A stretch of DNA of 64,000 nucleotides from Rhizobium jaguaris. GTDB lineage: Bacteria > Pseudomonadota > Alphaproteobacteria > Rhizobiales > Rhizobiaceae. The stretch spans positions 1,116,001 through 1,180,000 of the forward strand of contig NZ_CP032695.1 of NCBI RefSeq assembly GCF_003627755.1. The letters are read 5' to 3'. Position 1 is the first letter of the stretch; each line of letters begins with the position of its first letter. Of this stretch, positions 14,204-42,157 are shown piece after piece. The position numbers and the translations under genes were made by a program. The notes below the pieces were generated by a model, which worked only from the letters and a program-made list of their open reading frames with translations, was not told the DNA's origin and searched no databases.

Positions 14204-14872
14204 CTATGACGTCGGTGGCAGAACCGCTTGCGGTTCCTCGAAATGACGAAGAGGACGGCAAACCAGTCACGAGTTCAACAAAGAAAGGCCGAACGATGTT
14301 CTCGCCGGCCTCCCTTGCTCCATTTCGATACTGCCGGTACATCCGCGGTCAGTCATCGGAAGTGGCTCATGAGGTGAGTATGTCACTGCTGAGAGTTTGT
14401 GCAAGGAACAAATTTGGAGTAGGCCATTGTCCTACTTTTTGGCTGTTCCACCTTGCTTGAACGCGATTCCGCTAGCCACCAATGCAGACCAGCAGTTCTT
14501 AAACACTGCAGACGGATCGTTGAGTACCTAAACCGAATGCGCTGCGGTTGGTCCCATCTCGGTCCGATCCTTGTAGAGAAGCGCCGCCCATATAGGCTTC
14601 GCATGATTTCTTACTGGCGCTCGCTGATCCATCATTGCAAATGAAGGTTGGTCCCTGGCAGTGATCGACGCTGCCTTTGTGGCCACTGCATCGAGTAGTG
14701 ACCCATGAAATAGCTGGCGCCTCTCCGATTTGCCGGCATATGTCGGATCAATCTGCATCGCTCAGTTCGTCCGATTCTGAAGAACAAAATCCAAAATGGA
14801 TAATTGCGCGGTTCTCATCCTGAAAATTATTCATACCCTTTTTCCGACAGGTTTGGGAGGAGCGACGAGATA
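14204..14872. other. Intergenic region before the catabolic island
   Basis: No gene was recognised in these 669 bases. A 6-bp hairpin (GAACCG / CGGTTC, 14221-14236) lies 17 bp after the repeat gene and could end its transcript, without a T-run. The 17-bp island element sits at 14789-14805 and a Shine-Dalgarno GGGAGGAG precedes 14873. Confidence 0.45.
14789..14805. promoter_or_regulatory. Island operator candidate, copy 1
   Basis: The sequence is ATCCAAAATGGATAATT: a palindrome ATCCA-N3-TGGAT followed by AATT. It is 68 bp upstream of the SDR start at 14873. Closely matching copies occur at 27615 and 36065, each in front of another unit of the same island, so I propose one shared transcription factor. 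Confidence 0.6.
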
Positions 14873-15646
14873 ATGACGGATACGAAGCTTTGCATTTTGA
14901 CAGGGGCTGCCGGGGAAGTTGGCCGGGCAACGGCGCGGCGTTTCGCAGAGAGCGGCTGGTCGATGATCCTGTGCGACAGGATGGCTGACATTTCAGCTCT
15001 GGCGAACGATTTTTCTGCCGAGTTCGGTCGCACCTGCCTGGGCATCCAGATGGATCTGGCGAACGATCAGGAGGTCGATCGGGTTGCAAAGACAGCGAAT
15101 GAAACCGGCATTCCATTGCGCTTCCTGGGACTGGTGGCCGCGATCAACCATCCGGCCGTCAGCATCGAGAATATCGACATGGCCCTATGGGACCGGGTGC
15201 ACAACATCAATCTGCGGGCGAACGTGAAGTTCATTAGCGCGTGCGTGCCGCAGCTGCGCAAGGCTGGTAATGCTTCCATCGTGAATGTCGCCAGCTACTG
15301 GGGCAGGGAAGGTCATGCCTATTTCAGCCCCTATTGCACATCGAAGGCCGCACTGATTTCGCTGACGCAAAGCGTCGCCGCGGAGCTCGCGCCAGATATC
15401 CGGGTGAATTGCGTCGCGCCAGGCAATATCAACACGCCGATGCATTTCAATGCGCTGGCGGTCGAGGCTGAAAAACGCGGAATTTCCGCCGATGAAATGC
15501 GTGAGATCGAGTGGGCCAAGATCCCGATGGGCCGTCCTGCTGAAACAGCAGAGATAGCATCCGCAATTCATTTTCTGTCTACCGACGATGCTAGCTATTT
15601 CATCGGCGCGACGCTGGACGTCAATGGTGGCTGCCGATTCACCTAA
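14873..15646 (+). CDS. SDR family oxidoreductase
   Basis: This is a 257-residue classical short-chain dehydrogenase. The ATG at 14873 is chosen because GGGAGGAG lies 11 bp upstream; an open extension to 14804 has no ribosome site and would run across the region just after the operator. The NAD(P)-binding motif TGAAGEVG is at residues 10-17, and the catalytic residues are Ser141, Tyr154 and Lys158 (YCTSK). The C-terminal VNGGCRF is the usual SDR end. It should oxidise or reduce a secondary alcohol or ketone. It is the first gene of the island after operator copy 1 and is followed by an ABM-domain gene 152 bp downstream. The substrate is unknown. Confidence 0.88.
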   Translation: MTDTKLCILTGAAGEVGRATARRFAESGWSMILCDRMADISALANDFSAEFGRTCLGIQMDLANDQEVDRVAKTANETGIPLRFLGLVAAINHPAVSIENIDMALWDRVHNINLRANVKFISACVPQLRKAGNASIVNVASYWGREGHAYFSPYCTSKAALISLTQSVAAELAPDIRVNCVAPGNINTPMHFNALAVEAEKRGISADEMREIEWAKIPMGRPAETAEIASAIHFLSTDDASYFIGATLDVNGGCRFT

Positions 15647-15681
15647 CGAGACGGCGATCGGCGCAGAAAATTGGAAGGTCA

Positions 15682-15798: not shown

Positions 15799-16101
15799 AT
15801 GTTGGATCAGCTTACGGTCATCGCTCATCTCGTGGCGCGTCCGGACAAGATCGAGGACACAAAGGCATTTCTGATGTCGCTCATCGAGCGGACGCGCGCT
15901 GAGGAAGGCTGCGTCGACTATCATCTGCACCAGAGCCAGGAGGACCCGGCCAACTTCGCCTTCTATGAAAACTGGACCAACCGCGCGGCCCTGGACGAGC
16001 ATATGGAGACGCCGTATCTGCAGGAGTTGATCGCGCGAAAGGACGAGTTTTTCAAAGTTGACCCGGACATTCGCCTGCTGACGATGATTTCGCCGCGATG
16101 A
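15799..16101 (+). CDS. Antibiotic biosynthesis monooxygenase (ABM) domain protein
   Basis: This 100-residue protein is one ferredoxin-like ABM domain: LTVIAHLVARPDKIEDTKAFLMSLIERTRAEEGCVDYHLHQSQEDPANFAFYENWTN, then a helix with HMETPYLQELI. The ordering of EEGC-Y-hydrophobic-Q and FYENW is diagnostic. Members (for example YgiN, a quinol monooxygenase) act on quinols or polyketide phenols without metal or flavin, while others only bind or isomerise ligands. In an island ending in hydroxyquinol cleavage a role on a quinol or quinone intermediate is plausible but unproven. A GGGGAGGGAAAG ribosome site precedes the ATG. It converges with the LacI gene, 12 bp away. Confidence 0.85.
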   Translation: MLDQLTVIAHLVARPDKIEDTKAFLMSLIERTRAEEGCVDYHLHQSQEDPANFAFYENWTNRAALDEHMETPYLQELIARKDEFFKVDPDIRLLTMISPR

Positions 16102-16113
16102 TGTCCGTCCGGC

Positions 16114-17223
16114 TCAACCGGTAATCGCGCCCGATTGGACAGCGACAGGCGAAGGATCGGCATCCGATCCGCGCTTACGCACCGGGCCTGTGCTGCCTCG
16201 CAGCACCAGATGAGGCGTGAGAAGGACGCGCTTTATCGGTTGCGAAAGATTCTTGATCAGGCTCATGAGTAGGTCGGCGCCCTCCAATCCGAGGTCACGA
16301 CCCGCAGTGTGTAATGTTGTCAGCGGCGGCGACAGCATATTCATGAACGGCAGATCGTTGACGCCGGTCAGCGAAATCTGTTCCGGACAAGAGATGCCAG
16401 CCGATTTCAGCGCAACAAGGCATCCAACGGCGAGCAGGTCGTTGAAGGCGAGGACGGCGGTGCTGGTCAATCCTGACGCCAACATATGCGCCATGATCCG
16501 CTCGCCCTCAGCAACATCATAGGCTCGCGCTTCGACAACATCGAACCGGCAACCGGCAGCCTTTGCAAGGCGTGTCGCCGCATTGAAACCCGCCAGCCGG
16601 TTCTGAGCGGTAGAGGCCGCCAACGGCGGGGTGACGTAGCTGATATCCCTATGGCCCAGATCGAGAATGTGCTCAACCAGCGCTTGAACGCCTGAAACAT
16701 CGTCCATCGAAATCGACGACATCCGAGGGTGCCTGGGATCCCGAAGAACGGCAACGGTCGGTATGCCCAGTTCCAAGCAGAGTTCGACTGAGGGGTCATT
16801 GAGCTCGAAGCTGGCAACGACCAGGCCGGCGACGAACTGACTGCTCATCCGCTCGATGATCGATCGGAGTTTAACGGGACTGTAATCCGAGTTAGCGACG
16901 AAGGTCACGTAGCCATCTTCCGCCACGCGTTCTTCCACGGAAGCGATGATTGGAGAAAACAAGGGGTCGCTGAGATTAGGGACGATGAGACCGATGGTTC
17001 CCGTCTTCTGCGTTCGAAGGCTAGAGGCGAGAGTGTTTCGCTTGTAGCCGAGCTGCTCGGCCACCTTCTCGATCTTTCGGACGACCTTGCTCGATATCCG
17101 ATGGCTCGTGCCCGGGTTCAGCGCACGCGACGCCGTCGAGACATGCACGCCGGCGCCGTTCGCAACGTCAACGATGGTGACGCGCGGGCGCTTGCCTTGA
17201 TGACGCTGCGGGATATCGATCAT
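16114..17223 (-). CDS. LacI family transcriptional regulator
   Basis: With ATG at 17223 the protein has 369 residues; a GTG at 17290-17292 would add 23 residues unlike the family, so I prefer the ATG. The LacI helix-turn-helix is TIVDVANGAGVHVSTASRALN (about residues 16-36) followed by the hinge segment GYKRNTLASSLRTQKTGTIGLIVPN. The rest is a periplasmic-binding-protein fold effector domain (GLTSTAVLAFNDLLAVGCLVAL, LTGVNDLPFMNMLSPPLTTL). It would bind a sugar-like effector and repress the divergently transcribed reductase and transporter operon. The palindrome GCAAACGTTTGC upstream of that operon is a typical LacI-family site. Confidence 0.9.
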   Translation of the reverse strand: MIDIPQRHQGKRPRVTIVDVANGAGVHVSTASRALNPGTSHRISSKVVRKIEKVAEQLGYKRNTLASSLRTQKTGTIGLIVPNLSDPLFSPIIASVEERVAEDGYVTFVANSDYSPVKLRSIIERMSSQFVAGLVVASFELNDPSVELCLELGIPTVAVLRDPRHPRMSSISMDDVSGVQALVEHILDLGHRDISYVTPPLAASTAQNRLAGFNAATRLAKAAGCRFDVVEARAYDVAEGERIMAHMLASGLTSTAVLAFNDLLAVGCLVALKSAGISCPEQISLTGVNDLPFMNMLSPPLTTLHTAGRDLGLEGADLLMSLIKNLSQPIKRVLLTPHLVLRGSTGPVRKRGSDADPSPVAVQSGAITG

Positions 17224-17496
17224 TCGGGGGCCGGCCACATCAACTTTCGGATTCGGTTGATTGGGAAAATATGCGATCAAACCTTTGCACACAAGATGGG
17301 TGATAAAGCGATTGCGGTTCGACGATTATCATCTCACTGGGAGAATCCCCTTTAAAGAGACAACCCTTGGCTTAAAGTGCTTCGAAATTTCGCCCTTTGC
17401 TAGCTGATAGTGAGTAAAAGCGACCGCCTGAAACAGCGTCCCGACAAGGCCACTCGTTCTAAATTTTCGTGTGCCTAGGATACTTTCGCAGATATT

Positions 17497-17512: not shown

Positions 17513-17597
17513 TAGAGAGGCTCATAACAAACCACTATAAAAGCTATATAAATCGGTATTCCTGATCTTTCCATGCCCAAGGAATCTGCAAAAGAGA

Positions 17598-17609
17598 GCA
17601 AACGTTTGC
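17598..17609. promoter_or_regulatory. LacI-family operator
   Basis: GCAAACGTTTGC is a perfect 12-bp palindrome with the central CG typical of LacI-family operators. It abuts the -35 hexamer of the promoter at 17612-17640 and lies between the lacI-type gene and the operon it faces. Confidence 0.7.
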
Positions 17610-17611
17610 AC

Positions 17612-17640
17612 TTGACTCATCCGTTTGTGGCTTCTAATCA
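17612..17640 (+). promoter_or_regulatory. Candidate sigma-70 promoter of the reductase/transporter operon
   Basis: TTGACT (17612-17617), a 17-bp spacer and TAATCA (17635-17640) give a good -35 and a weak -10. The LacI-type palindrome directly upstream fits a repressible promoter. Confidence 0.45.
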
Positions 17641-17692
17641 TGCCCACCAACGGAGCGGCACAGTGCGTGCCGGGGAATGGAGAGAACGCACG

Positions 17693-18727
17693 ATGTCCTG
17701 GGATTTCGAGCGCAGTCCAAAGATCGCATTTGTCGGTACCGGCGCGCAGGGCGCGTCGATTGGTGCCGATTTTGCGCTGGCGGGCCTTGATGTAACCTTC
17801 ATCGAGCAGTGGCCGGAGCATGTCGATGCGATGAATGAGCGCGGTATCACAGTGCACCTGCCCATGCGCTCAATTAATGCAAACGTTCGCGCAAAACACC
17901 TTTGCCAAGTGGCAGAACTGCGGGAGCGCTTCGATATCATCTTCCTGGTGGTCAAGGCTTACGATACCCGCTGGACATGCCAGCTCGTCGAGCCGGTTCT
18001 GGCATCCGACGGCCTCGTCGTCGGTGTGCAGAATGGAATGACGCAGCATGCGATCGCTTCAGTCGTTGGCGTCGAGCGCACTGTCGGCGCCGTCTTCGAC
18101 ATGGCGTCGAATATGTTCGTGCCTGGCGTGACAAACCGACAGAACGATCACGACACGTCCTGGTTTGCGCTCGGTGCTCTCGATCCGGCAAATCGGGCGC
18201 GGGTGGAAAGAATCGCGGAGCTGCTGCGGCTGAGTGGCCGCGTCGAGGTTTCGGACGATATCGGTTCCGCCAAGTGGATGAAGCTGGTTGTCAATGCCGC
18301 GCAATTGGTTCCGTCGGCCATCCTGAACCTCCCATTCGCGGAGGCGATCAAGATGCCCGGCATGGCGACGGTGATGCGAACCGCAGGTTATGAGGCGATG
18401 CGCGCGGCGCAGGCCGATGGCGCAAGCATTGTTCCAATCCTCGGCATGGCCCCGACGACGACCAACGATCCGGAACGCTATGTAGACGAGATTTTCGACG
18501 AAGTCCTCAAGACATTCATGATGCCGGATACGCTGACGACCGTCCTCCAGGATTGGCGGAAGAGACGGCGCGCGGAGGTCCTGGATATCAACGGATACGT
18601 CGTCGAGACGCTGAAAAGAGCGGAGCAGGCAGCTCCGATCAACGAACGGATCGTCGAGATCGCCCGCTCGATCGAGCGAGGAAGTCTGGCGGCACAGGCG
18701 TCGAACAGCTCGCTTTTCGCATCATAA
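17693..18727 (+). CDS. Ketopantoate reductase (ApbA/PanE) family protein, copy 1
   Basis: This is a 344-residue protein from ATG 17693 (GGAGAG about 9 bp upstream). The longer open frame to 17573 would run through the promoter and operator. The N-terminal Rossmann motif is FVGTGAQGASIGADFALAG. The family elements FLVVKAYDTRWTCQLVEP and LVVGVQNGMT follow, as does the catalytic region with SAKWMKLVVNAAQLVPSAI (Lys and Asn). It belongs to the 2-dehydropantoate 2-reductase superfamily, but two near-identical copies inside a catabolic operon point to reduction or oxidation of a different 2-keto/2-hydroxy compound. It is not recommended as panE. It forms an operon with copy 2 and the first sugar-type ABC importer. 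Confidence 0.82.
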   Translation: MSWDFERSPKIAFVGTGAQGASIGADFALAGLDVTFIEQWPEHVDAMNERGITVHLPMRSINANVRAKHLCQVAELRERFDIIFLVVKAYDTRWTCQLVEPVLASDGLVVGVQNGMTQHAIASVVGVERTVGAVFDMASNMFVPGVTNRQNDHDTSWFALGALDPANRARVERIAELLRLSGRVEVSDDIGSAKWMKLVVNAAQLVPSAILNLPFAEAIKMPGMATVMRTAGYEAMRAAQADGASIVPILGMAPTTTNDPERYVDEIFDEVLKTFMMPDTLTTVLQDWRKRRRAEVLDINGYVVETLKRAEQAAPINERIVEIARSIERGSLAAQASNSSLFAS

Positions 18728-18826: not shown

Positions 18827-19888
18827 ATGAGTTGGGATAAGGCGCGCGGCCCGAGAATCGCATTTTTGGGAACAGGCGCTCAGGGCGCGTCCATTGGAGC
18901 CGATTTCGCATTGGCCGGGCTCGACGTCACCTTCATCGAGCAGTGGCCGGACCACGTCATGGCCATCCGCGAAAACGGGATCACCGTGAATCTGCCGACC
19001 CGCACCATCAATGCGAAGGTCCCCGCTCTGCATCTCTGCCAAGTCGCGGAAATCAAGGAGCCTTTCGATATCGTCTTTCTCGTGGTCAAGGCCTACGACA
19101 CCAAATGGGCATGCCAGCTCATCGAGCCCTGCCTGGCTCCAGACGGCCTGATCGTGGGGCTTCAGAACGGCATGACGCATGAGGACATCGCTGACGTCGT
19201 CGGCCGCGAACGGACCATCGGTGCCGTTATCGAAATTGCCTCCAACATGTTCGTTCCCGGCATCACGAACCGGCAAAACGATCATGACACCTCGTGGTTC
19301 GCTCTCGGCGCGTTGGATCCCAAGACGCAGGAGCGAGTTGAAGACGTCGCCGATCTGCTCCGGAATTCCGGCACCGTCGAAGTCATGGAGGATATTCGTT
19401 CCGCGAAATGGATGAAGCTCGTCGTCAATGCCGCCGAACTCATTCCGTCGGCGATTATCAACTTGCCGCTGGCAGACGCTGCGCGTGCACCCGGCATGCT
19501 CGAAGTCATGCGAGCAGCGGGATACGAGGCAATGCAGGCCGCTCTGGCGGATGGCGCCAAGATCGTTCCGATCATCGGCATGCCGCCGGTCACGACCAAC
19601 CATCCGGAGCGCTACGTCGACCAGATCTTCGAGGAGGTGCTGAAGACCTTCTCGCAGGCCGACACATTGACGACGTCCTTGCAGGACTGGCGCAAGGGGC
19701 GCCGCGCTGAGGTGCAGGAAGTCAACGGATGGGTCGTCGACATCCTCGCCGCTCATGGTCAGAAAGCGCCGGTGAACCAGCGCGTTATGGACGTTGCTTA
19801 CGATATCGAGGCTGGCCGGATCGAAGCGCGGCCGGAAAATTCGACCCTGTTGATCGAGACATACCAAGCCGTGGCCGACCGTCGATAA
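18827..19888 (+). CDS. Ketopantoate reductase family protein, copy 2
   Basis: This 353-residue protein starts 99 bp after copy 1, with GAAGGAGAG before the ATG. It aligns with copy 1 over its full length with few gaps (FLGTGAQGASIGADFALAG, FLVVKAYDTKWACQLIEP, SAKWMKLVVNAAELIPSAI), and clearly most positions are identical. The two arose by tandem duplication and have diverged enough to have separate substrates or to form a heteromer. Compared with copy 1 the C-terminus is longer by about nine residues (ETYQAVADRR). The order copy 1, copy 2, binding protein, permease, ATPase, permease implies that they process the cargo of this transporter soon after import; that is inference. Confidence 0.82.
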   Translation: MSWDKARGPRIAFLGTGAQGASIGADFALAGLDVTFIEQWPDHVMAIRENGITVNLPTRTINAKVPALHLCQVAEIKEPFDIVFLVVKAYDTKWACQLIEPCLAPDGLIVGLQNGMTHEDIADVVGRERTIGAVIEIASNMFVPGITNRQNDHDTSWFALGALDPKTQERVEDVADLLRNSGTVEVMEDIRSAKWMKLVVNAAELIPSAIINLPLADAARAPGMLEVMRAAGYEAMQAALADGAKIVPIIGMPPVTTNHPERYVDQIFEEVLKTFSQADTLTTSLQDWRKGRRAEVQEVNGWVVDILAAHGQKAPVNQRVMDVAYDIEAGRIEARPENSTLLIETYQAVADRR

Positions 19889-19944: not shown

Positions 19945-21051
19945 ATGAAATCGCATCTGAAATTCGGCACCATGGCACGACGGCTCGTGACGTCCGCAGC
20001 TGTCTGCGCGAGCATCGCGCTACCGGCCGCGCATGCGAACGCCGGCGAGGCGAAGGGCGGCAAGCTGATTGTCGGCATCGACGAGACAGCTTCCGAATAC
20101 TGGTCGGAATATCTGCAGGGCGTGAAGGATATCGGCGAGTCGCTCGGCAAGGATCCCGCCGTGCTGACCAGCAATTATCAGGGTGACCAGCTTCTGGCCC
20201 AGCTCGGCGCTACCTATTCGGCCGGCTGCAACCAGTGCGCCCTTGCCACCGACCCGTCATCGAACGCCTTCGTAAAAGCCGTAGTCAACAGGTCGGCCAA
20301 GTCGAAGGTCCATGTCGTCACGATCTGGAACCGCCCCGAGGACATCCATCCCTGGGACACTGATTCTAAATATTGGGTCGCCCACACGTCCTTTGATGGC
20401 GTGATGTCGGGCTATTATCAGGTCATGGCGCTTTGCAAGGCGTTGAACGGCAAGGGCAAGATCGCAGCAATCGAAGGCGTCCCGTCCACCCCGCCGGCCT
20501 ATCAGCGTATCGCCGGCCTGAAGAAGGGCCTGAAGGAATGCCCCGGTCTCGAACTCGTCGACACGCAGGTCGGTGACTGGCAGGAAACAAAGGCGCAGAA
20601 TATTACCCGCACCTGGCTTGCGCGCTACGGGGATCAACTGCAGAGCATCTTCGCTTCCAACGATGCGATGGGCCGCGGCGCCGTCGCCGCCCTGAAGGAA
20701 AAGGGACTGAACGGTAAGGTTCTAGTTACCGGCTCTGATGGTTCGAATATCGGCCTGGAAATGGTCAAGAACGGCGACATGCTGGCGACCGTCTGGAATG
20801 ATCCGGTCCTGCAGGGCGCGGTTTCCATGTCGCTCGCCTATGCGGCGGCTGTCGGCGATATCGATCCGGAAAAGCTGACGCATGCGCAGCGCGACTTCTA
20901 CCTCAAGCAGGATGTCGTGACGAAGGACAACGTCGACAAGTATCTCGACCTCAAGAAGAACGCGCCGAAATACGCCTACGACGAAATCAAGAAAGACTTC
21001 TGGAAGGACTCGGCGGGTCAGATTCCGGAAGGCGCAAACGAGAACAAGTAA
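19945..21051 (+). CDS. Sugar-type ABC transporter substrate-binding protein (transporter 1)
   Basis: This 368-residue exported protein starts after GAGGAGGAG. A signal peptide (basic start, hydrophobic core LVTSAAVCASIALPAA, cleavage around HANAG) precedes KGGKLIVGIDETASEYWSEYLQGV, the first strand and helix of cluster B (ribose/galactose) binding proteins. Other fold elements are QGDQLLAQLGATYSAGCNQCALATDPSS, VHVVTIWNRPEDIHPWD, GKIAAIEGV, IFASNDAMGRGAVAAL and VLVTGSDGSN. The Trp-rich ligand pocket region and two Cys near GCNQC are notable. It would deliver a sugar-like ligand to the permeases encoded next. The ligand cannot be named. Confidence 0.88.
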   Translation: MKSHLKFGTMARRLVTSAAVCASIALPAAHANAGEAKGGKLIVGIDETASEYWSEYLQGVKDIGESLGKDPAVLTSNYQGDQLLAQLGATYSAGCNQCALATDPSSNAFVKAVVNRSAKSKVHVVTIWNRPEDIHPWDTDSKYWVAHTSFDGVMSGYYQVMALCKALNGKGKIAAIEGVPSTPPAYQRIAGLKKGLKECPGLELVDTQVGDWQETKAQNITRTWLARYGDQLQSIFASNDAMGRGAVAALKEKGLNGKVLVTGSDGSNIGLEMVKNGDMLATVWNDPVLQGAVSMSLAYAAAVGDIDPEKLTHAQRDFYLKQDVVTKDNVDKYLDLKKNAPKYAYDEIKKDFWKDSAGQIPEGANENK

Positions 21052-21067
21052 TCGGAAGGAGGGGTCG

Positions 21068-22093
21068 ATGGACGCCGCTACCAGTATGAACTCCAAAACC
21101 GGCGCTCGCTCGCTGACGCTGATTGGCGAGATCCGAAGCAAGTCGTCATGGACTCAGTTTGCGGGACCTATTGTGGCGCTCGTCGTGCTGTCCGTAGGTT
21201 TCCAGCTGGTTAGCGGTAGCTTCTTTACGATCGACAACCTCAAATCCGTGATCGAGGCAGCGGCGGTTCCTGCAATTCTCGCCGCTGCCATAAGCTTTGT
21301 CGTCATCATGGGTTCCATCGACCTCTCGGTGGAAGGCACGATGGCGACGACGAGCATGATCGTTGCCCTCCTGGTCGCAAACAGCGTCAACGGCAACGAC
21401 TACGGCATGGTGGGGTTACTGGCCGCGCTGGCCACCGGCCTCGCCTTCGGTCTCTTCAACGCCGTCCTCAATGCGGTGCTGCAAATGCCCTCCCTGATAG
21501 TGACACTCGGAACCTGGTTCGTCGGGCTGGGCATAGCGGCCGTTCTCTTTCCCCAGCGCGTCCCGCAGATCAACGATCCGCTCATCCTCAACCTGGCCCG
21601 TGTTCGCATCTTTGATCTGAGCCTGGTCGTCTACATCGCGCTCGCCGTGATCATCATCAGCCAACTGGTCCTGAATTTCACGAGACTGGGCCGCATGATC
21701 TACGCGATCGGAGGCGATGAAGGCCTGCTCGTCGCCTCCGGCCTGCGCATCCGATGGGTCAAGATATCGGCCTTTTCCATTTGCGGTCTGCTCGCGGGCA
21801 TGTGCGGCGTCTTGCTGTCAGCGCAGCTCAGTACCGGAAATGCGAATATCGGCAATGGGCTTCTGTTTCCAGCGATCAGCGCCGCGGTTCTTGGAGGCAC
21901 TGTCCTTACCGGCGGACGCGGCGGCGCGGTTCAATCTGCCCTTGGTGCTTTGCTTCTCGAAGTGCTGAACAATGGCCTGATCCAGATCGGAGCCGGTCCC
22001 TACACCCGCCATATCATCAGCGGCGCGGTCATCGTCATCGCGGTCGCCGTTGGCGGCTGGCATCGCCGCAGCAAACTGAGGGTCGTAAAATGA
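21068..22093 (+). CDS. Sugar-type ABC transporter permease (transporter 1, subunit A)
   Basis: This is a 341-residue RbsC-type permease with eight or more membrane helices. Characteristic segments are AISFVVIMGSIDLSVEGTMA, LQMPSLIVTLGTWFVGLG, and the C-terminal FPAISAAVLGGTVLTGGRGGAVQSALGALLLEVLNNGLIQIG. Its TGA overlaps the ATPase start (ATGA). It should form a heterodimer with the second permease at 23662, since both carry the GSIDLSV and GG-(T)-(A/V)-(L/I)-(T/S)-GG blocks and the ATPase gene lies between them. Confidence 0.9.
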   Translation: MDAATSMNSKTGARSLTLIGEIRSKSSWTQFAGPIVALVVLSVGFQLVSGSFFTIDNLKSVIEAAAVPAILAAAISFVVIMGSIDLSVEGTMATTSMIVALLVANSVNGNDYGMVGLLAALATGLAFGLFNAVLNAVLQMPSLIVTLGTWFVGLGIAAVLFPQRVPQINDPLILNLARVRIFDLSLVVYIALAVIIISQLVLNFTRLGRMIYAIGGDEGLLVASGLRIRWVKISAFSICGLLAGMCGVLLSAQLSTGNANIGNGLLFPAISAAVLGGTVLTGGRGGAVQSALGALLLEVLNNGLIQIGAGPYTRHIISGAVIVIAVAVGGWHRRSKLRVVK

Positions 22094-23607: not shown

Positions 23608-23661
23608 CGCGAGCGGCCTTCCATCTTGCAAACTGAATTTGGAACAAGGGATGAAACGACC

Positions 23662-28658: not shown

Positions 28659-28668
28659 GGAGGACATC

Positions 28669-28793: not shown

Positions 28794-28804
28794 AAGGCAT
28801 GGCA

Positions 28805-29878: not shown

Positions 29879-29880
29879 TC

Positions 29881-30648: not shown

Positions 30649-30666
30649 ATTCGAAAGGAATTATCC

Positions 30667-31961: not shown

Positions 31962-31971
31962 GGAGGAAGAC

Positions 31972-32955: not shown

Positions 32956-32958
32956 GTC

Positions 32959-34017: not shown

Positions 34018-34036
34018 GATGTCAGGAGTGCAGCAT

Positions 34037-34918: not shown

Positions 34919-34927
34919 GAGCGGAAA

Positions 34928-35992
34928 TTGGAAAACTTCGTCTACAACGGAAATCCGGGCCGCGTCATTTTCGGGCGCGGGACGATCGCGCGTCTTCCCG
35001 AAGAGGCTGAAAGGCTAAAGGCGCGGCGCATTCTCGTACTTTCTACTCCCGAACAAGCCGAACAGGCGTCCGCTATCGCGCGGCACATGGGATCGCGCGC
35101 CGTCGCTACCTATTCGAAGGCGCAGATGCATACTCCGGTCGAGGTGACGGCAGATGCCATGCGATATGTGGAGCAACATGCCATCGATGCACTGCTGTCT
35201 GTTGGTGGCGGGTCGACGACGGGCCTCGGAAAGGCGATCGCCTTTCGCACCGACCTGCCGCAGATCGTGGTGCCCACGACCTATGCGGGCTCGGAAGCCA
35301 CACCAATCCTGGGCGAGACCGAAAGCGGCCGCAAGGTCACGAAGTCCGATCCGCGCATCCTTCCCGAAGTCATCGTCTACGATGTCGATCTGACGATGAC
35401 GTTGCCCGTCTCACTTTCGGTGACCAGCGGCATCAATGCGGTCGCCCACGCAGTCGAAGCACTTTATGCGAAAGAGGCTAATCCGATCATTTCGCTGATG
35501 GCGGAAGAAGGGATCACTGCCATCGCCCGCGCATTGCCGCGCATTCATTCAAACCTAGGCGATGAGGATGCGCGGGCGGATGCACTTTACGGTGCATGGC
35601 TCTGCGGCGTCTGTCTCGGCTCGGTCGGCATGGCGCTGCATCACAAGCTTTGTCATACGCTTGGAGGCATGTTCAACCTGCCGCACGCGCAGATGCACAC
35701 GGCGGTCCTGCCGCATGCGATCGCCTATAACGCCGATGCGACGCCGGCAGCGATGGCGCGGCTGGGCAGGGCTCTCGGTGCTGCCGATCCGGCCGCCGGG
35801 ATTTTCGACTTGGCCAAAGGGCTCGGCGCGACGATGTCGTTGAAGGATCTCGGTATGTCTGATGGCAGTGTCGATGCGGCGGTCGAGCAGGCAATGTCAA
35901 ACGCCTATTGGAACCCCCGTGAGCTGGAAAAGCGCGGGCTGACCGATTTGCTCGAACGCGCCTTCCGTGGAGACGCGCCAAAGACGGCATAA
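34928..35992 (+). CDS. Maleylacetate reductase
   Basis: This 354-residue iron-type alcohol dehydrogenase family protein starts at TTG 34928 behind AGGAGCGG. MENFVYNGNPGRVIFGRGT is the conserved maleylacetate reductase start. The cofactor loop is SVGGGSTTGLGKAIA, followed by VPTTYAGSEATPILGETE, which is diagnostic of the family. The segment HHKLCHTLGGMFNLPHAQMHTAVLPH carries the His residues of the metal region. It reduces maleylacetate to 3-oxoadipate with NAD(P)H, feeding the 3-oxoadipate pathway. It is the last gene of the run that begins at 27870 and is followed by a GC-rich hairpin. Confidence 0.92.
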   Translation: MENFVYNGNPGRVIFGRGTIARLPEEAERLKARRILVLSTPEQAEQASAIARHMGSRAVATYSKAQMHTPVEVTADAMRYVEQHAIDALLSVGGGSTTGLGKAIAFRTDLPQIVVPTTYAGSEATPILGETESGRKVTKSDPRILPEVIVYDVDLTMTLPVSLSVTSGINAVAHAVEALYAKEANPIISLMAEEGITAIARALPRIHSNLGDEDARADALYGAWLCGVCLGSVGMALHHKLCHTLGGMFNLPHAQMHTAVLPHAIAYNADATPAAMARLGRALGAADPAAGIFDLAKGLGATMSLKDLGMSDGSVDAAVEQAMSNAYWNPRELEKRGLTDLLERAFRGDAPKTA

Positions 35993-36025: not shown

Positions 36026-36064
36026 TCTGCAGATTTGGGTGGAAAGCCACGCAGTTATTCAGAA

Positions 36065-36081
36065 GTCCAAAATGGATAATT
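36065..36081. promoter_or_regulatory. Island operator candidate, copy 3
   Basis: GTCCAAAATGGATAATT differs from copy 1 at the first base only. A TATAAC at 36113-36118 could be the -10 element of a promoter for the following YciI-transporter unit, which would place the element around position -50 to -35. Confidence 0.6.
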
Positions 36082-36197: not shown

Positions 36198-36482
36198 ATG
36201 CTTGCAGTTCGCGTTGCTCTATCCAATCCCGAGAAGGCGGACGCACGCGAAACCTATTTGCAGGATCACAAGCGCCATCTGCGATCGGGTCGGCTTCGCA
36301 TCGTCCAGTCCGGACCGATCCTCGACGAAGCCGGCGAGGGAAGCGGAGGAGTCGTCGTCGCAGATGTCGTCTCGCTCGAAGAGATGCATCGATTCAGTGC
36401 AGAGGATCCCTTTGTCCTCCACGGAGTCTATTCGAGCGTCAGCATCCACGAATGGCGACCAACGATCAGTGATCGCGGATAA
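36198..36482 (+). CDS. YciI family protein, copy 2
   Basis: This is a 94-residue protein from ATG 36198, with GAGGAG 10 bp upstream. The open frame reaches back to 36039, but that part would run through the operator and promoter and has no ribosome site. The YciI-like elements are LQDHKRHLRSGRLRIVQSGPILDEAGEGSGGVVVADVVSLEEMHRFSAEDPFVLHGVY split over the domain, with the His of DHKRHL and the Asp of AEDPF as in copy 1. The two copies have the same length but are clearly diverged. It opens the second transport unit of the island and may act on the same ring intermediates as copy 1. Confidence 0.78.
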   Translation: MLAVRVALSNPEKADARETYLQDHKRHLRSGRLRIVQSGPILDEAGEGSGGVVVADVVSLEEMHRFSAEDPFVLHGVYSSVSIHEWRPTISDRG

Positions 36483-36859: not shown

Positions 36860-37885
36860 ATGACAAACGCTACCCCCATCACCTCAAATATGCGTCCCAA
36901 GGAGACGATATTGCGGATGCCGCTGGCGCGAAGCTTCATGACTGTCGTTGGCTCGACGCTCGTTCTGCTCCTCATATGCATGATCTACGCACCCTCAAGC
37001 CTCTCCTGGGGGGCGCTGACGGGGAGTCTGCCTTTCGCGGCGATTATCGCCATCGTGGGCCTCGGACAGTTGCTTGTTGTGCAACAGGGCGGCTTCGATC
37101 TCTCGCTGCCCGGAGCCGTGTCGCTCGCAGTCGTCGTCGCAACCCACTATCCGCAACAGAATGATGCGTTGCTTTTCCAGGCCGTCCTGCTGTCCATTGG
37201 CTTTTTGCTCGCTGCCGGCTTCTTGAATGGCATCCTCATCAGCTTTTTTCAGCTGAATGCAATCATCGCCACGATCGGCACCAACGCTCTCCTTTATGGC
37301 GCGGTCTTCGCCGTGTCCGGTGGTGTCCCCTCGATCACGACAGATCTGTTGGCTGACATTGCGGGTGGCGAAATCCTGGGCGTGCCGAACTCGGTGGTCT
37401 TCGCGCTCGTCGCCATGGCCATCGTGACCTTCGTGCTCAAGAAAACGGTTGCCGGGCGCAGGTTCGAGGCAATCGGTGCCAACCCGCGAGCCGGGCGCGC
37501 AGCAGGCCTAAACGTCCGCGTTCACCAAACCATGGCTTATGTCTACGCGCAGCTTCTCTACTGCATGGCCGGGACGCTGATCGCAGGCATCACGCGCGAG
37601 CCGACCGCCTTTCAGGGAGACAGCCTGTTGCTGCCATCCGTTGCGGTTGTGGTGCTCGGCGGCACCTCGCTACTGGGCGGCCGGGGCTACCCCATTTCGA
37701 CGGTCATCGCCGCCTTCTTTCTAAACCAATTGAGCCAATTCGCACTCTCGGTCGGCGTGCCGTTTTCGGCTCAAACCATCATCCAGGCCTTGGCTCTGGG
37801 TTTTGGCATCGGCGTTTACTCGTTCCGCTGGACGGTAAACCTCAGAAAAGCAACTGGAACAAAAAAAGTGGAGGAACAGAAATGA
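36860..37885 (+). CDS. Sugar-type ABC transporter permease (transporter 2)
   Basis: This 341-residue RbsC-type permease has the segments IVGLGQLLVVQQGGFDLSLPGAVSLAV, FFQLNAIIATIGTNALLYGAVFAVSGG, FEAIGANPRAGRAAGLNV and LPSVAVVVLGGTSLLGGRGYPIS. The normally conserved GGIDLSVG is changed to GGFDLSLPG. It overlaps the binding-protein gene by 4 bases. The second permease of this system is the C-terminal domain of the fused protein at 39020, so the transporter is again a heterodimer. Confidence 0.88.
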   Translation: MTNATPITSNMRPKETILRMPLARSFMTVVGSTLVLLLICMIYAPSSLSWGALTGSLPFAAIIAIVGLGQLLVVQQGGFDLSLPGAVSLAVVVATHYPQQNDALLFQAVLLSIGFLLAAGFLNGILISFFQLNAIIATIGTNALLYGAVFAVSGGVPSITTDLLADIAGGEILGVPNSVVFALVAMAIVTFVLKKTVAGRRFEAIGANPRAGRAAGLNVRVHQTMAYVYAQLLYCMAGTLIAGITREPTAFQGDSLLLPSVAVVVLGGTSLLGGRGYPISTVIAAFFLNQLSQFALSVGVPFSAQTIIQALALGFGIGVYSFRWTVNLRKATGTKKVEEQK

Positions 37886-38949
37886 AATACGCTTCTATCG
37901 CCAAAGGCTTGGCCTTCTCCGTTGCAACTGCGGTCATGGCACTCGGCAGTGCCAATCTTGCCAAGGCGGGGGCGCCGTCCTGGTGTGGACCGAAGAAGGC
38001 AACGCTGGCTTTGCTCGACGGCTACGGCGGCAACAGTTGGCGCCAGGTGACAACGGCTTCTGGCAAGCAGACCGTCGAGCTCTGCCCGAGCATCACCAAA
38101 TACGAATACGCCGATGGTCAGGGCGATACCCTGAAGTCCATTTCGGATATCAAGAGCATGGCAGCGAAGGGCATCGACGCGCTTGTCGTATTCGGCGACG
38201 CGGGCCCCGCAGTCCTTCCGGCGCTTACCAGCGTTTATAAGCAGGGCAAGGTCGTTGTGCCTTATCGTGTTGCCGTCGGCGGCAAGGACGGTCAAAATTA
38301 TTCCAAATTCATCGGGGCGTCCTTCGAGAACGATGGCGAGAACTGGGGGACGTGGATCAAGAGCGTGTTGCCGAAGGGCGGAAACCTGCTGTTCCTCAGC
38401 GGGCCGGCGGGCAACAGCCAGGGCCTGGACGAACTCAAAGGCCTGAAGAAGGTCCTCGGACCGGAATATGTCTTCGTCAATCCGCAACCGTTCGACGTTA
38501 CGAATTGGGATCCGGCACTGACCCAGAAGGTGCTGACGGCGGAAATCGCCAAGAATGCCAAGATTGATGTCATCATCTCCGACTTCGGGCCTTCGATGGT
38601 CGGTGCTTTGCCGCTGTTTAGCAAGCAAGGCAAGTCGATCCCGGCGCTCGCCACCTCCGACGGTAATTCGCTCGGCTGCTTCTGGCAGGCGAACAAGGCA
38701 AGCAATGTGGATTTCAAACTATTCACGGTCGCGACCGGCAATGACAACGTGCGCCTCGCCGTGCAATGGGCGGTCGCACTCGCCACCGGCGGCACGCCGC
38801 CGAAGGACGAGGTTTTCGAGGCTCCGGTTTTCGAGGACTCGGTCTCCGGAAAGCCGAATGCAGTGCAGTGCCGCAACGATCTGCCGGGCGCCATCTACTT
38901 GTCTTCGGAGCTTCCCGCTGAAGATCAAGCCAAGGCCGTTGGCAAGTAA
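37882..38949 (+). CDS. Sugar-type ABC transporter substrate-binding protein (transporter 2)
   Basis: This 355-residue exported protein starts in an ATGA overlap, with GTGGAGGAAC upstream. The signal peptide (MKYASIAKGLAFSVATAVMAL, cleavage near LAKAGA) precedes ATLALLDGYGGNSWRQVTTASG, the first strand of a cluster B binding protein. Then come KSISDIKSMAAKGIDALVVFGDAG, VVVPYRVAVGG, LLFLSGPAGNSQGLDEL and IDVIISDFGPSMVGALPLF. It has an internal Cys pair (SWCGPK and ELCPSI) that could form a disulphide. It differs strongly from the binding protein of transporter 1, so the two systems probably take different ligands. Confidence 0.88.
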   Translation: MKYASIAKGLAFSVATAVMALGSANLAKAGAPSWCGPKKATLALLDGYGGNSWRQVTTASGKQTVELCPSITKYEYADGQGDTLKSISDIKSMAAKGIDALVVFGDAGPAVLPALTSVYKQGKVVVPYRVAVGGKDGQNYSKFIGASFENDGENWGTWIKSVLPKGGNLLFLSGPAGNSQGLDELKGLKKVLGPEYVFVNPQPFDVTNWDPALTQKVLTAEIAKNAKIDVIISDFGPSMVGALPLFSKQGKSIPALATSDGNSLGCFWQANKASNVDFKLFTVATGNDNVRLAVQWAVALATGGTPPKDEVFEAPVFEDSVSGKPNAVQCRNDLPGAIYLSSELPAEDQAKAVGK

Positions 38950-38969
38950 TTGGCAAAACGAACACGACA

Positions 38970-38993
38970 TGCCCGGAGGAAAACCTCCGGGCA
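38970..38993 (+). promoter_or_regulatory. Intercistronic hairpin after the binding-protein gene
   Basis: Perfect 10-bp arms TGCCCGGAGG / CCTCCGGGCA enclose AAAA, with no T-run. In ABC operons such hairpins behind the binding-protein gene protect the upstream message and lower downstream expression, giving excess binding protein; that role is inferred from position. Confidence 0.6.
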
Positions 38994-39019
38994 AGCGTCC
39001 CTAGACTGGATCATAAGCT

Positions 39020-41530
39020 ATGACTGCAGCACAGGTTAATGCGATCGAGGCGGGCAGATCGGCACATTACGACGTGACCATCCGCTTGGCCGGCATCTAC
39101 AAATATTTCTCGGGCGTTCCAGCGCTCCGCGATGTGAACGTCGAATTCCTGCCGGGCGAGGTTCATGCCATTCTTGGTGAGAATGGTGCAGGTAAATCGA
39201 CATTGATGAACATCATCGCGGGCACGCTCCAGGCCAGCGGGGGCGAAATTACCTTCGAAGACCAGCGCATCCAGCAGATGACACCCGAAGTCGCGGCCTC
39301 TCTTGGCATCGCTATCTGTTTCCAGCACCCGGCGATCCTCGAGGATCTTTCGGTTCTGGAGAACGTCTGTGTTGCGCTGCCACCTTCTGTTTTTTCCGAT
39401 CGACCGGCGCAGGATGTCGTCCAGGACATGCTCGATGCGGTAGGGCTGCAGCTGCCGTTGCGTATGCGCGCCGATCGTATGACGGTGGCGCAGAAGCATC
39501 TGCTCGAAATCGGTAAGGCGCTTGCGCTCAAGCCCAAAGTTCTCATTCTCGACGAACCGACCGCCTCCCTTGATCAGGAAGCGTCGGACATGCTGTTCGG
39601 TCGCATCCGCAACGCGGTCGCGACCGGAACCTCGGTCATCTACATTACCCACCGTCTGGCGGAGTTGCGCCAGATTGCCGACCGCGTGACAGTCTTGCGC
39701 GACGGACGCGTTCGTGGCGCCGCACGTGTCGGAGATATCAGCGATGCCGACCTCGTAGGTCTCATTGTGGGCCGCACGCTTGAAGCCGCTTTCCCGCCGA
39801 AGTCGAAGGACGTAGCCGAGGAAACGAGCCTCTCTATCGCCGGCCTGAGCGGAAGGGGACTTAGAAATATCAGCTTCGATGTGCCGCGTGGCCAGATCAT
39901 CGGCATTGCTGGTGTGGCAGGCAATGGCCAGACGGGACTCATGCGCACGCTCGCGGGACTGGAGCCGGCACAGGGCGCTATCACCTTGCGCGGCCGCATG
40001 CTCAAACAGCAGGGACTTCTGCGCGAAGCCGCCTTCATGCCTTCTGACAGGCATCGGGAGGGCGTCGCGAGCGGCCTGACCGTGCGTGAAAACGCCACTT
40101 TCTCGGCCCTGGACAAACTCGCGGTTAACGGGATCATGAGTCGCGCGAAGGAACACGAAAAGGTTAAGTCGATCTTCGACGAGCTGGCGGTGAAGGCGCC
40201 AAGCATGGAGGCCCCGATCCTGTCGCTGTCCGGCGGCAACCAGCAGAAGGTCGTGATGTCGCGAGCGCTTTTGTCGGAGCCGGGCCTGATCATCGCCGAC
40301 GAGCCGACCCAAGGCGTCGACGTCGGCGCGCGCTTCGAAATCTACCGCATCCTGCGGGACGTCTCGGATGCTGGAACGCCCGTTATCGTGAATTCTTCCG
40401 ATGCCGTGGAGCTCGAGGGGCTCTGTGACAAAGTCGTCGTGATGTCGCGCGGACATGTCGTCGAAACGCTCACCGGTGATGAAGTCACCGAAGAACGGAT
40501 CGTCGCCGCCGCCGTCAAGGCGGAAACCCATGATGTTGAAAGCGGCTCGAAGGCAGTGGCGGCGCAATCGGAGGGGCTTCGCCACTTCTTGCAGTCGGAC
40601 AATTCACCGATCGTGCCTCTGGCGCTCGTCACTCTGCTTCTTGGGCTCTATGTCAACGGCCAGAACGACAACTTCCTGTCGATCTCCAATATCTACAACA
40701 TTTTTCTTCTGGCGACCGCATTGGGCTTTATCGCGCTCGGGCAGACCATCGCGTTGCTCATGGGCGGTATCGATCTTTCCGTAGGACCGCTCGCCGGCTT
40801 CCTCGTCGTCGTCGCCTCGTTCTTCGTCAACGACGGTATGTCGACGCCGGTGGTTCTGGTGGGCTTAATGCTGATGTTCGCCGGCGCGTTTGTCACCGGC
40901 GCTGTGAACGGACTTCTGATACGATATGCGAACTTTACGCCCATCGCCGCGACGCTCGCCATGTATATCGCGATCCAGGGGCTGAGCTTCCTGCTGCGCG
41001 ATAATCCCGACGGCTATATAAGTTCCACGGTGACGGACTGGATCAACTGGCAGTGGGGTCCGTTTCCCGTGGCCTTCCTGGTGCTTGTCGCCGTCACCTT
41101 GTGCGGTGAATATGCCTTGCGCCGGACGAGGCTCGGCTGGCGCCTGCGGGCCGTCGGTTCCAACGAGGAATCGGCACGCCGAATGGGCATTCGAATCGAT
41201 CTGACCTACATCAGCGGATATATCGCTTGCTCGTTGCTGACCGGTCTCGGTGCCGTGATGCTGATGACCCAGATCGGCGTTGGCGACCCGCGTCAGGGGG
41301 TCAGTTATACACTCTCCAGCATCACTGCCGTCGTGCTCGGCGGCACGAGCCTGACGGGCGGTCGCGGGACGTTTATCGGAACGGTCTTAGGCGCTGTCCT
41401 GCTTACCGAGATCCTTAGCGCCGTCACTTTCCTTAGCCTCACCCAGACCTATCAGTATTTGTTCCAGGGGATTCTGATCGTCGTCGCTGCGTTGATCTAT
41501 GCGGCGGTGCGCAGACGAGCCGCCTCCTGA
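39020..41530 (+). CDS. Fused ABC transporter: two ATPase domains plus permease (transporter 2)
   Basis: This 836-residue protein joins an RbsA-type double ATPase to an RbsC-type permease. NBD1 has Walker A GENGAGKST (53-61) and Walker B LILDEPTASLD. NBD2 has the family's degenerate Walker A (GVAGNGQTGL), signature LSGGNQQKV and intact Walker B IIADEPTQGVD. From about residue 520, after RHFLQSDNSPIVP, eight or more membrane helices follow with TIALLMGGIDLSVGPLAG, FTPIAATLAMYIAIQGLSFLL and VVLGGTSLTGGRGTFIG. Ribose-type systems normally encode these as separate chains, so the fusion ties one permease to the motor while the other permease (36860) is separate. No frameshift is needed: the junction is one continuous frame. 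Confidence 0.9.
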   Translation: MTAAQVNAIEAGRSAHYDVTIRLAGIYKYFSGVPALRDVNVEFLPGEVHAILGENGAGKSTLMNIIAGTLQASGGEITFEDQRIQQMTPEVAASLGIAICFQHPAILEDLSVLENVCVALPPSVFSDRPAQDVVQDMLDAVGLQLPLRMRADRMTVAQKHLLEIGKALALKPKVLILDEPTASLDQEASDMLFGRIRNAVATGTSVIYITHRLAELRQIADRVTVLRDGRVRGAARVGDISDADLVGLIVGRTLEAAFPPKSKDVAEETSLSIAGLSGRGLRNISFDVPRGQIIGIAGVAGNGQTGLMRTLAGLEPAQGAITLRGRMLKQQGLLREAAFMPSDRHREGVASGLTVRENATFSALDKLAVNGIMSRAKEHEKVKSIFDELAVKAPSMEAPILSLSGGNQQKVVMSRALLSEPGLIIADEPTQGVDVGARFEIYRILRDVSDAGTPVIVNSSDAVELEGLCDKVVVMSRGHVVETLTGDEVTEERIVAAAVKAETHDVESGSKAVAAQSEGLRHFLQSDNSPIVPLALVTLLLGLYVNGQNDNFLSISNIYNIFLLATALGFIALGQTIALLMGGIDLSVGPLAGFLVVVASFFVNDGMSTPVVLVGLMLMFAGAFVTGAVNGLLIRYANFTPIAATLAMYIAIQGLSFLLRDNPDGYISSTVTDWINWQWGPFPVAFLVLVAVTLCGEYALRRTRLGWRLRAVGSNEESARRMGIRIDLTYISGYIACSLLTGLGAVMLMTQIGVGDPRQGVSYTLSSITAVVLGGTSLTGGRGTFIGTVLGAVLLTEILSAVTFLSLTQTYQYLFQGILIVVAALIYAAVRRRAAS

Positions 41531-41641
41531 TGGGATAGCGGATGGCCCATATGCTCTGGATTCGACCATCTATACGGCTGGAATTTGCTTTCGAACGTCG
41601 TGATTTCGATCATTCAACCGCATTCTGATGAGGAAGATAAC

Positions 41642-42157
41642 ATGGCAACTAAAGTCTACGGTATGCATCATATCGGCATCACCGTCCCGAATATCGAAGA
41701 GGGCGTCGCCTTCTTTCAAGCGGTCTTCGGCGCCATCGATGTCTTTCGCACGGGACCGTTCGATGTCGATCAGGATTTCATGAAGAACAAGCTCGGCGCT
41801 TCGGCACAGTCGACCATTCGCGATCTGGTTTTCCTGCGTTGTGGCGAGGGAACGAGCGTCGAGCTCTTCGAATATAGCGGCGAGGAAGCCTCGCCACCGA
41901 AACGATCATCAGAGGTCGGCGGCATGCACCTCTGCTTCGAAGTCCAGGATGTGCATGCTTCCGCGGAGCGCCTGCGGGCGCAAGGCATCGAAATGCTTGA
42001 CGGTCCCAACTTAGTGGAGACGGGTCCTTTGGCAGGCTTCAACTGGATTTATTTTCGGGCTCCTTGGGGCCTGATCCTGGAGCTCGCAAGCTTCGACAAG
42101 CTCGGATACGAAGACAACTCTCCCCATCGCTTGTTGAGAGCAAGTCAATCCAACTAA
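41642..42157 (+). CDS. VOC (glyoxalase/bleomycin resistance) family protein
   Basis: This is a 171-residue protein from ATG 41642, with GAGGAAG upstream. The VOC fold is shown by VYGMHHIGITVPNIEEGVAFFQAVFGA (metal His of HHIGI), VELFEYSG, GGMHLCFEVQDVHASAERLRAQGIEM (second His) and WGLILELASFD (Glu). It is one VOC module pair in a single chain. Members catalyse isomerisation, epimerisation or dioxygenase steps with a divalent metal. At the end of the transporter 2 unit it probably handles an intermediate of the island, such as a lactone or an epimerisable keto compound. The substrate is unknown. Confidence 0.83.
   Translation: MATKVYGMHHIGITVPNIEEGVAFFQAVFGAIDVFRTGPFDVDQDFMKNKLGASAQSTIRDLVFLRCGEGTSVELFEYSGEEASPPKRSSEVGGMHLCFEVQDVHASAERLRAQGIEMLDGPNLVETGPLAGFNWIYFRAPWGLILELASFDKLGYEDNSPHRLLRASQSN

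Follow-up and report, generated by a model that had tools for sequence, protein, structure and literature searches.

To our knowledge, hydroxyquinol (1,2,4-trihydroxybenzene) has been treated as an intermediate whose formation needs an oxygenase, and a gene island of Rhizobium jaguaris, in which hydroxyquinol-cleaving genes stand among polyol-type dehydrogenases and sugar-type importers, raises the question of how this ring could arise otherwise. The island occupies 14.8-42.2 kb of a stretch of 64,000 nucleotides (the window), which lies on the 2.58-Mb contig NZ_CP032695.1 (C2:1116001-1180000) of the 8.03-Mb, four-contig genome GCF_003627755.1. An initial annotation had proposed that hydroxyquinol is formed there from an imported non-aromatic ring polyol by successive oxidation and dehydration. 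In this study, the content, conservation and regulation of the island were investigated. The genes of the set very probably act in a single pathway that leads to hydroxyquinol and dispenses with a classical hydroxylase; that its regulon makes hydroxyquinol from a non-aromatic ring polyol, through oxidation and a TftG-like elimination, is to our mind an even possibility. The observations behind this reading are the gene set, its conservation, the lack of a recognised ring hydroxylase, the fact that dioxygenases of different lineages recur beside a single dehydrogenase clade, and a common palindrome.

Linkage of the dehydrogenases to hydroxyquinol cleavage

Gene families were typed by Pfam and NCBIfam scans. 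From 27870 to 35992 all genes are co-directional on the plus strand with gaps of -4 to 131 bases, which is consistent with a single operon. It comprises a short-chain dehydrogenase (SDR) of the acetoin-reductase-like subfamily (SDR1, 27870-28658), a zinc dehydrogenase (ZnDH1, 28790-29878), another SDR (SDR2, 29893-30648), the small TftG-like protein YciI1 (30667-30951), a Gfo/Idh/MocA dehydrogenase (Gfo, 30948-31961), a second zinc dehydrogenase (ZnDH2, 31972-32955), an enone reductase of the PRISE family (32959-34017), to which progesterone 5-beta-reductase and iridoid synthase are related, hydroxyquinol 1,2-dioxygenase (34037-34918, with its start at 34019 or 34037) and maleylacetate reductase (MAR, 34928-35992). 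The gap between the PRISE and dioxygenase genes is 19 bases, and that between the dioxygenase and MAR genes is 9 bases. The closest solved structures of the dioxygenase are hydroxyquinol and 6-chlorohydroxyquinol dioxygenases (8r2x, E 8e-134; 3n9t; 1tmx), and its residues Y168, Y203, H227 and H229, which we take to be the Tyr/Tyr/His/His iron ligands, are invariant in the dioxygenase alignment. The adjoining MAR matched the maleylacetate reductases 3jzd, 3hl0 and 3w5s. Enzymes of the former family convert hydroxyquinol to maleylacetate, and those of the latter convert maleylacetate to 3-oxoadipate.

Most of the inventory in the initial annotation was recovered by the scans and PDB matches: besides this last pair, two ribose-type importers of the CUT2 family (19945-24642 and 36860-41530), the Gfo/Idh/MocA enzyme, three SDRs (SDR1, SDR2, and SDR0 on the plus strand at 14873-15646, its start lying at 14804 or 14873 by gene model), two zinc dehydrogenases, two ketopantoate-reductase-like enzymes (KPR1 and KPR2), one 3-hydroxyisobutyrate-dehydrogenase-like enzyme (HIBDH) and the PRISE protein. 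An SDR remnant was also listed; the stretch between SDR2 and Gfo, possibly the one meant, is the intact YciI1 gene. Two small genes had been overlooked, namely YciI1 and a plus-strand gene of the ABM family (antibiotic biosynthesis monooxygenase domain, 15799-16101). The statement that the island holds no flavin monooxygenase or decarboxylase agrees with our scans, as FAD_binding_3, Acyl-CoA_dh_2, Rieske and decarboxylase domains were not found among the genes scanned.

The core arrangement was also observed on plasmids of Sinorhizobium sp. B11, Rhizobium sp. WL3, R. rhizoryzae and R. indicum, in the last of which other importers replace importer 2. The recurring order, a putative regulator gene (HTH_SBP, described below) and HIBDH on one side and ZnDH1-YciI-Gfo-ZnDH2-(PRISE)-dioxygenase-MAR on the other, at about 45-97% amino-acid identity, is more than chance would give. 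Dioxygenase loci were collected from a scan of one genome per species, and the best 80 of at least 592 were considered (L numbers denote loci and G numbers genomes). Among these 80, the full set with Gfo was detected in L005, L006, L011, L055, L059 and L064, and parts of it, with no Gfo within the fetched stretch, in L033 and L030. In L059 and L064 the operon continues with KPR2, a small protein, two CoA-transferase subunits, a thiolase and a VOC gene, and L126 likewise has CoA-transferases and a thiolase. Since these would carry 3-oxoadipate to central metabolism, the operon looks complete without a hydroxylase.

Over all fetched stretches, Gfo proteins of at least 55% identity make up a clade of 19 loci. 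A dioxygenase lies within 16 kb in 16 of them, and L128 brings the count to 17 of 19, since stretch L137, which adjoins it on the contig, carries one at a distance of about 11 kb. ZnDH1 and ZnDH2 are each present in 18 of the 19, MAR in 15, PRISE in 14 and importer 2 in 11. A tree of 40 Gfo rows grouped the 19 cassette-type proteins in a single supported clade. Linkage to a dioxygenase was seen for 17 of these versus 0 of the 21 others, though the absence is weak for L180, L187, L189 and L193 because their contigs are 4-9 kb long. Chance adjacency was set aside on this difference. The dioxygenases of the 17 strict cassette loci are scattered over several lineages among 94 tree rows, with 6 label changes, at least 5 of them forced (8 changes for the 19 cassette rows that include L033 and L030). 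The same dehydrogenase lineage has therefore been paired repeatedly with different hydroxyquinol dioxygenases, which argues more strongly than any other finding for hydroxyquinol as the end point of the dehydrogenases.

A search with the Gfo alignment of 297 genomes of the family gave 17 genomes at E<=1e-60, 11 of these above 470 bits, and nine of the 11 have a dioxygenase within 20 kb; in G160 the dioxygenases, one of which adjoins a hydroxylase, are encoded on a different contig, and G275 (85% complete) lacks the gene. Among 385 genomes of the class, 19 gave matches, the best besides the source genome scoring 388 bits. Wider context was fetched for 9 of the 10 weaker family matches and for 11 of the 18 other class-survey genomes, and in these 11 contexts no dioxygenase was found near the weaker matches. 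YciI1 was matched in 15 of the family genomes, 10 of which have a dioxygenase within about 12 kb, and in six of the class genomes, the source genome included. G657 (L206) carries a cluster of MAR, amidohydrolase, HIBDH, dioxygenase, FAD-linked oxidase, importer and YciI1.

The initial annotation had also suggested looking in other genomes for the set without a ring hydroxylase. This is what was found: eight oxygenase probes had no match in the 19 Gfo-clade stretches, the whole window included, 17 of which are dioxygenase-linked. Of the best 80 dioxygenase loci, 55 have a ring oxygenase of FAD_binding_3, Acyl-CoA_dh_2 or Rieske type, 11 have YciI1 (at least 55% identity), none has both and 14 have neither. 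Oxygenases were counted as BLAST clusters c6, c11, c26, c28, c48, c54, c80 and c271 within 8 kb, with one member of each typed by Pfam, and types beyond these eight would escape the count. The two FAD hydroxylase types commonest beside such dioxygenases had no match in the source genome at E<=1e-10, and likewise none in G017 and G275.

The divergent gap ahead of the dehydrogenase operon contains a perfect palindrome, TATCC-N5-GGATA, in the window (TATCCATTTTGGATA, 27614-27628) and in L001, L002, L003, L004, L011, L121 and L122, and L002 and L121 have a second perfect copy before importer genes. Perfect copies amounted to 10 in the 0.66 Mb of 27 cassette-related stretches, all 10 intergenic, versus one in the 1.30 Mb of 70 other dioxygenase loci, a control that includes L030, L053 and L065 as carriers of parts of the set; one-mismatch copies amounted to 28, several within genes, versus 18. 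In the window, a one-mismatch copy (AATCCAAAATGGATA, 14788-14802) precedes SDR0 and the ABM gene, and a degenerate copy with two mismatches (36064-36078) precedes the second YciI-family gene and importer 2. L001 and L003 have one-mismatch copies at the place equivalent to the latter, and in L001 such a copy also precedes KPR2. The shared regulation claimed earlier is partly supported by the palindrome, which is conserved before the dehydrogenase-dioxygenase operon; as regards the importers, the copy at 36064 alone is not above chance, and none was found in the window before the importer 1 operon, whose neighbour is a LacI regulator.

A possible route from a ring polyol to hydroxyquinol

From these families we infer a polyol substrate, an order of oxidations and YciI1 as the lyase. 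A CUT2 importer would take up a ring compound bearing several hydroxyl groups, with a cyclitol or a deoxy- or O-substituted cyclitol as the likeliest candidate. Gfo, the two zinc dehydrogenases and the SDRs would oxidise ring carbinols to ketones, and the PRISE protein could reduce or isomerise an enone arising en route, a role perhaps taken in G160 and G275 by a gene of the old-yellow-enzyme family. YciI1 would then produce a quinonoid or aromatic ring by beta-elimination, that is, hydroxybenzoquinone or hydroxyquinol, which the dioxygenase would cleave to maleylacetate and MAR would reduce to 3-oxoadipate. A balanced example would lead from inositol to inosose, by loss of two waters to tetrahydroxybenzene, by loss of another water (the step that TftG performs with HCl) to hydroxybenzoquinone, and by gain of two hydrogens to hydroxyquinol, and would be redox-neutral overall. 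In flask chemistry, according to the available part of one report, inosose dehydrates to tetrahydroxybenzene and inositol derivatives give 1,2,4-trihydroxybenzene (PMC11467972).

YciI1 is a candidate lyase for a TftG-like elimination, as its nearest solved structure by sequence is TftG (E 7e-13), followed by HI0828 (E 1e-4). TftG, the 5-chlorohydroxyquinol dehydrochlorinase of the 2,4,5-trichlorophenol pathway, belongs like YciI1 to the YciI family and acts one step ahead of hydroxybenzoquinone or hydroxyquinol, as stated in the available part of PMC3975901. Unlike the tft system, the island shows no chlorophenol monooxygenase, and water or some other group would leave instead of chloride. The PRISE protein has full-length homology to PRISE enone reductases (E 8e-78) with the TGTKHYLGP and NFYY motifs aligned, the Lys and Tyr of which are presumably catalytic. 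Similar to the Thermotoga-type inositol route, which we take to consist of IolG and IolM, and to the common iol routes, the island has a Gfo/Idh/MocA enzyme and zinc dehydrogenases of the inositol- or inosose-oxidising kind by best NCBIfam models; IolM (scyllo-inosose 3-dehydrogenase) is the top-scoring model for both ZnDH1 and ZnDH2, and ZnDH2 is sorbitol-dehydrogenase-like by PDB match. The scores, however, lie far below the equivalog cut-offs (Gfo, 114 bits against 355 for inositol 2-dehydrogenase; ZnDH1 and ZnDH2, 149 and 165 bits against 450 for IolM), the island genes scanned showed no IolE-, IolD- or IolB-type Pfam domain, the scan being confined to the island, and the island ends in hydroxyquinol cleavage.

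The gra/resorcinol- and tft-type hydroxyquinol pathways use the same dioxygenase and MAR families, likely for the same reactions, but have a ring oxygenase, as in the 55 loci above, where the island has polyol-type dehydrogenases, PRISE and a TftG-like YciI. The nearest precedent found in print is Corynebacterium glutamicum, with MAR and dioxygenase genes beside inositol genes; that its iolT2-rhcM2D2 and oxi genes are neighbours we assume from gene numbers. The available parts of two reports state that 1,2,4-trihydroxybenzene releases the repressor IhtR from DNA at iolT2-rhcM2D2, with hardly any effect of resorcinol or inositol (PMC7764795), and that oxiC-cg3390-oxiD-oxiE are inositol dehydrogenase genes (PMC9603128). 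Unlike the island, this system has the inositol permease IolT2 in place of an ABC importer, and PRISE, YciI, a zinc dehydrogenase or a cyclitol-to-hydroxyquinol route do not appear in those parts. The earlier remark that no pathway with this gene set has been described agrees with the titles and abstract openings of the open-access literature, among which no cyclitol-to-hydroxyquinol pathway was found.

With reference to the remaining proposals of the initial annotation, formation of hydroxyquinol without a classical hydroxylase, through dehydrogenases of the same set, is well supported by the comparative genomics, the palindrome and the two FAD hydroxylase types unmatched in the genome. A non-aromatic ring polyol is a plausible precursor, fitting the TftG-like, enone-reductase and polyol-dehydrogenase-like families. 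Quinate or shikimate is less likely and was set aside, as decarboxylation would be needed and the scanned genes of the island showed no domain for it; no search for quinate enzymes elsewhere in the genome was made. Somewhat more tentatively than for the window alone, it is possible that bacteria aromatise an inositol- or quercitol-like cyclitol through a dedicated regulon and a TftG-like YciI, with no oxygenase before ring cleavage, in two architectures: one with Gfo and zinc dehydrogenases, as in the window, and one with a TRZ/ATZ-type amidohydrolase and HIBDH or KPR (L032, L200, L204, L206), perhaps for amino-cyclitols. If true, dehydrogenases and a YciI lyase would take the place of the oxygenase and open a way from alicyclic polyols to aromatics that needs no oxygen, and sugar-type ring carbon would enter the 3-oxoadipate pathway by a new bacterial passage from sugar-type to aromatic metabolism. 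Part of the large, mostly uncharacterised YciI family would gain a function, and the unexplained pairing of inositol and hydroxyquinol genes in C. glutamicum would perhaps be explained.

Several observations weigh against the polyol route. Gfo keeps the catalytic Lys and His, but the Asp of the Lys-Asp-His triad of inositol dehydrogenases is replaced by Ala184 (motif read by eye), so that Gfo may not be a simple polyol oxidase. In predicted fold, TftG is the top match of YciI1, but HI0828, of unknown function, is equal in Z; no IolE- or EDD-type dehydratase was seen among the island genes, leaving the lyase role to YciI1 alone. The exclusion between YciI1 and ring oxygenases (0 of the best 80 loci with both) is a statistic that ignores relatedness among loci. 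Two of the 19 Gfo-clade loci, L124 and L125, have no dioxygenase at the locus, and PRISE is missing in five of the 19, namely in these two, in L128, and in L121 and L123, where the dioxygenase is present. In the YciI1 surveys, the remaining five of the 15 family genomes have MAR only (one) or neither gene (four, including one at a contig end), and four of the five other class genomes have no dioxygenase within 7-20 kb. No intergenic palindrome with at most one mismatch was found in L005, L006, L059, L064, L123, L127/L142, L128/L137 and L033, so the regulatory link is clearest for the Rhizobiaceae form. Ribose-type importers also occur in clusters with a monooxygenase-like gene (L010, L058). 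As to hydroxylases, in the source genome FAD_binding_3 gave 31 matches, many of which are short, and Acyl-CoA_dh_2 gave 13; in L033, a related locus from a metagenome-assembled genome, a monooxygenase-like gene of the Acyl-CoA_dh_2 type stands two genes behind the dioxygenase; G014 and G160 have separate hydroxylase-dioxygenase clusters; and G204 has a 34% relative of one FAD hydroxylase type.

Other possible origins of hydroxyquinol

The imported compound might already be aromatic, such as a glycoside, ether or otherwise substituted form of hydroxyquinol. Gfo and the zinc dehydrogenases would then oxidise the sugar or side group, YciI1 would eliminate the substituent, and the dioxygenase and MAR would finish the degradation. 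TftG does work on a substituted hydroxyquinol in the available part of PMC3975901, the importers are of sugar type, and the solved relatives of Gfo include sugar and glycoside oxidoreductases (1,5-anhydrofructose reductase, aldose-aldose oxidoreductase and DgpA). We nevertheless regard this as unlikely, considering that no glycosidase or other glycoside-cleaving domain was found among the island genes scanned and that PRISE would not be needed. Free hydroxyquinol glycosides are also, as far as is known, rare in nature.

A still lower probability is given to an unrecognised ring oxygenase, either the ABM protein acting as a cofactor-free monooxygenase or a FAD- or acyl-CoA-dehydrogenase-type enzyme elsewhere in the genome. 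The one-mismatch palindrome before SDR0 and the ABM gene fits the former, as do ABM proteins in L055, L124, L141 and L142, but within the Gfo clade ABM is present in three of the 19 stretches (the window, L055 and L124), or four if L142, which continues L127, is counted. The FAD_binding_3 and Acyl-CoA_dh_2 matches of the genome and the neighbour in L033 speak for an enzyme of the latter kind; the two FAD hydroxylase types unmatched in the source genome, G017 and G275, and the lack, among the best 80 dioxygenase loci, of any with both YciI1 and a ring oxygenase speak against an unrecognised oxygenase of either kind. The strongest FAD_binding_3 protein is probably PobA, because it lies near a protocatechuate-dioxygenase-like gene. 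The second YciI-family protein (YciI2), Dabb, the c14 protein described below and ABM were also considered as a hidden hydroxylase and set aside; at least one of them is present in most cassette loci. YciI2 and c14 look accessory because they are also found in oxygenase-bearing clusters.

That the dioxygenase and MAR merely clear hydroxyquinol from elsewhere beside independent dehydrogenase and transporter modules is highly improbable: the modules are separable, as L124 and L125 with dehydrogenases and no dioxygenase illustrate, but the linkage of 17 of 19 versus 0 of 21, the repeated recruitment of different dioxygenases, the small PRISE-dioxygenase-MAR gaps and the common palindrome all weigh against it.

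Flanking genes and related clusters

Both importers are complete CUT2 systems with a Peripla_BP_4 protein, a BPD_transp_2 permease and a double ABC ATPase, and both substrate-binding proteins matched generic sugar binders only. Importer 1 consists of SBP1 (19945-21051), a permease (21068-22093), an ATPase with two ABC stretches (22090-23607) and a second permease (23626-24642), and is preceded by a LacI-family regulator on the minus strand (16114-17292) and by KPR1 (17573-18727) and KPR2 (18827-19888) on the plus strand. Importer 2 has a permease (36860-37885), SBP2 (37882-38949) and a fused ATPase-permease (39020-41530), with YciI2 ahead of it (36198-36482) and a VOC-family, methylmalonyl-CoA-epimerase-like protein behind it (41585-42157), all on the plus strand, as is importer 1.

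On the minus strand between importer 1 and the dehydrogenase operon are HIBDH (26522-27454), which resembles 3-hydroxyisobutyrate and 2-hydroxy-3-oxopropionate dehydrogenases, and HTH_SBP (24732-26453). The latter has an SBP_bac_1 solute-binding domain behind about 200 winged-helix-like residues, a helix-turn-helix-like region recognised by reading, with no Pfam match. By its domain make-up it is probably a one-component regulator of the cluster and may be a sensor built from a periplasmic binding protein. Relatives with 40-97% identity stand beside many such clusters, including 11 of the 19 Gfo-clade loci.

A second architecture was observed in L032, L124, L128, L141, L198, L200, L204 and L206, where YciI1 or a relative accompanies an amidohydrolase, often with HIBDH or KPR. 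The amidohydrolase is NF006056 in the five tested (L124, L128, L200, L204, L206) and was assigned by similarity in the others. L032, L200, L204 and L206 have the dioxygenase and MAR with no Gfo in the fetched stretch, and L128 is mixed in having Gfo. A Mesorhizobium/Bradyrhizobium variant (L050, L053, L065) holds the dioxygenase, a zinc dehydrogenase (45-47%), SDRs, MAR, YciI1, Dabb and ABC genes, without a close Gfo, PRISE or clustered oxygenases.

Clusters in L010 (6072-16164) and L058, from R. leguminosarum, combine an Acyl-CoA_dh_2 monooxygenase-like gene, MAR, hydroxyquinol dioxygenase, a YciI2 relative, a ribose-type importer and Amidohydro_2 (L010:7931-8911), and represent an oxygenase-bearing counterpart of the island. 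In L052, L054, L057 and L061 the hydroxyquinol cluster also includes genes for aldehyde dehydrogenase, amidase, Acyl-CoA_dh_2 and Rieske oxygenase proteins and may act on an aromatic compound that bears an amide. The c14 protein, of about 110 residues and with no Pfam match, adjoins hydroxyquinol dioxygenases in L008, L014, L017, L020, L026, L027, L059, L064 and L123. It begins with M-P-N in most rows, from which we presume a tautomerase-like protein that may be accessory in hydroxyquinol pathways; an earlier view of it as a ferredoxin-like barrel akin to YciI was dropped on account of this start in the alignment.

Outside the island, thi/bio genes lie downstream and, like the closest relatives of the window in the trees, indicate a Rhizobium; a creatininase-family gene (9348-10184) lies upstream. 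A long open reading frame (11978-14203) contains ALTTAQ repeats in 29 stretches, with a 15-base motif recurring every 408 bases.

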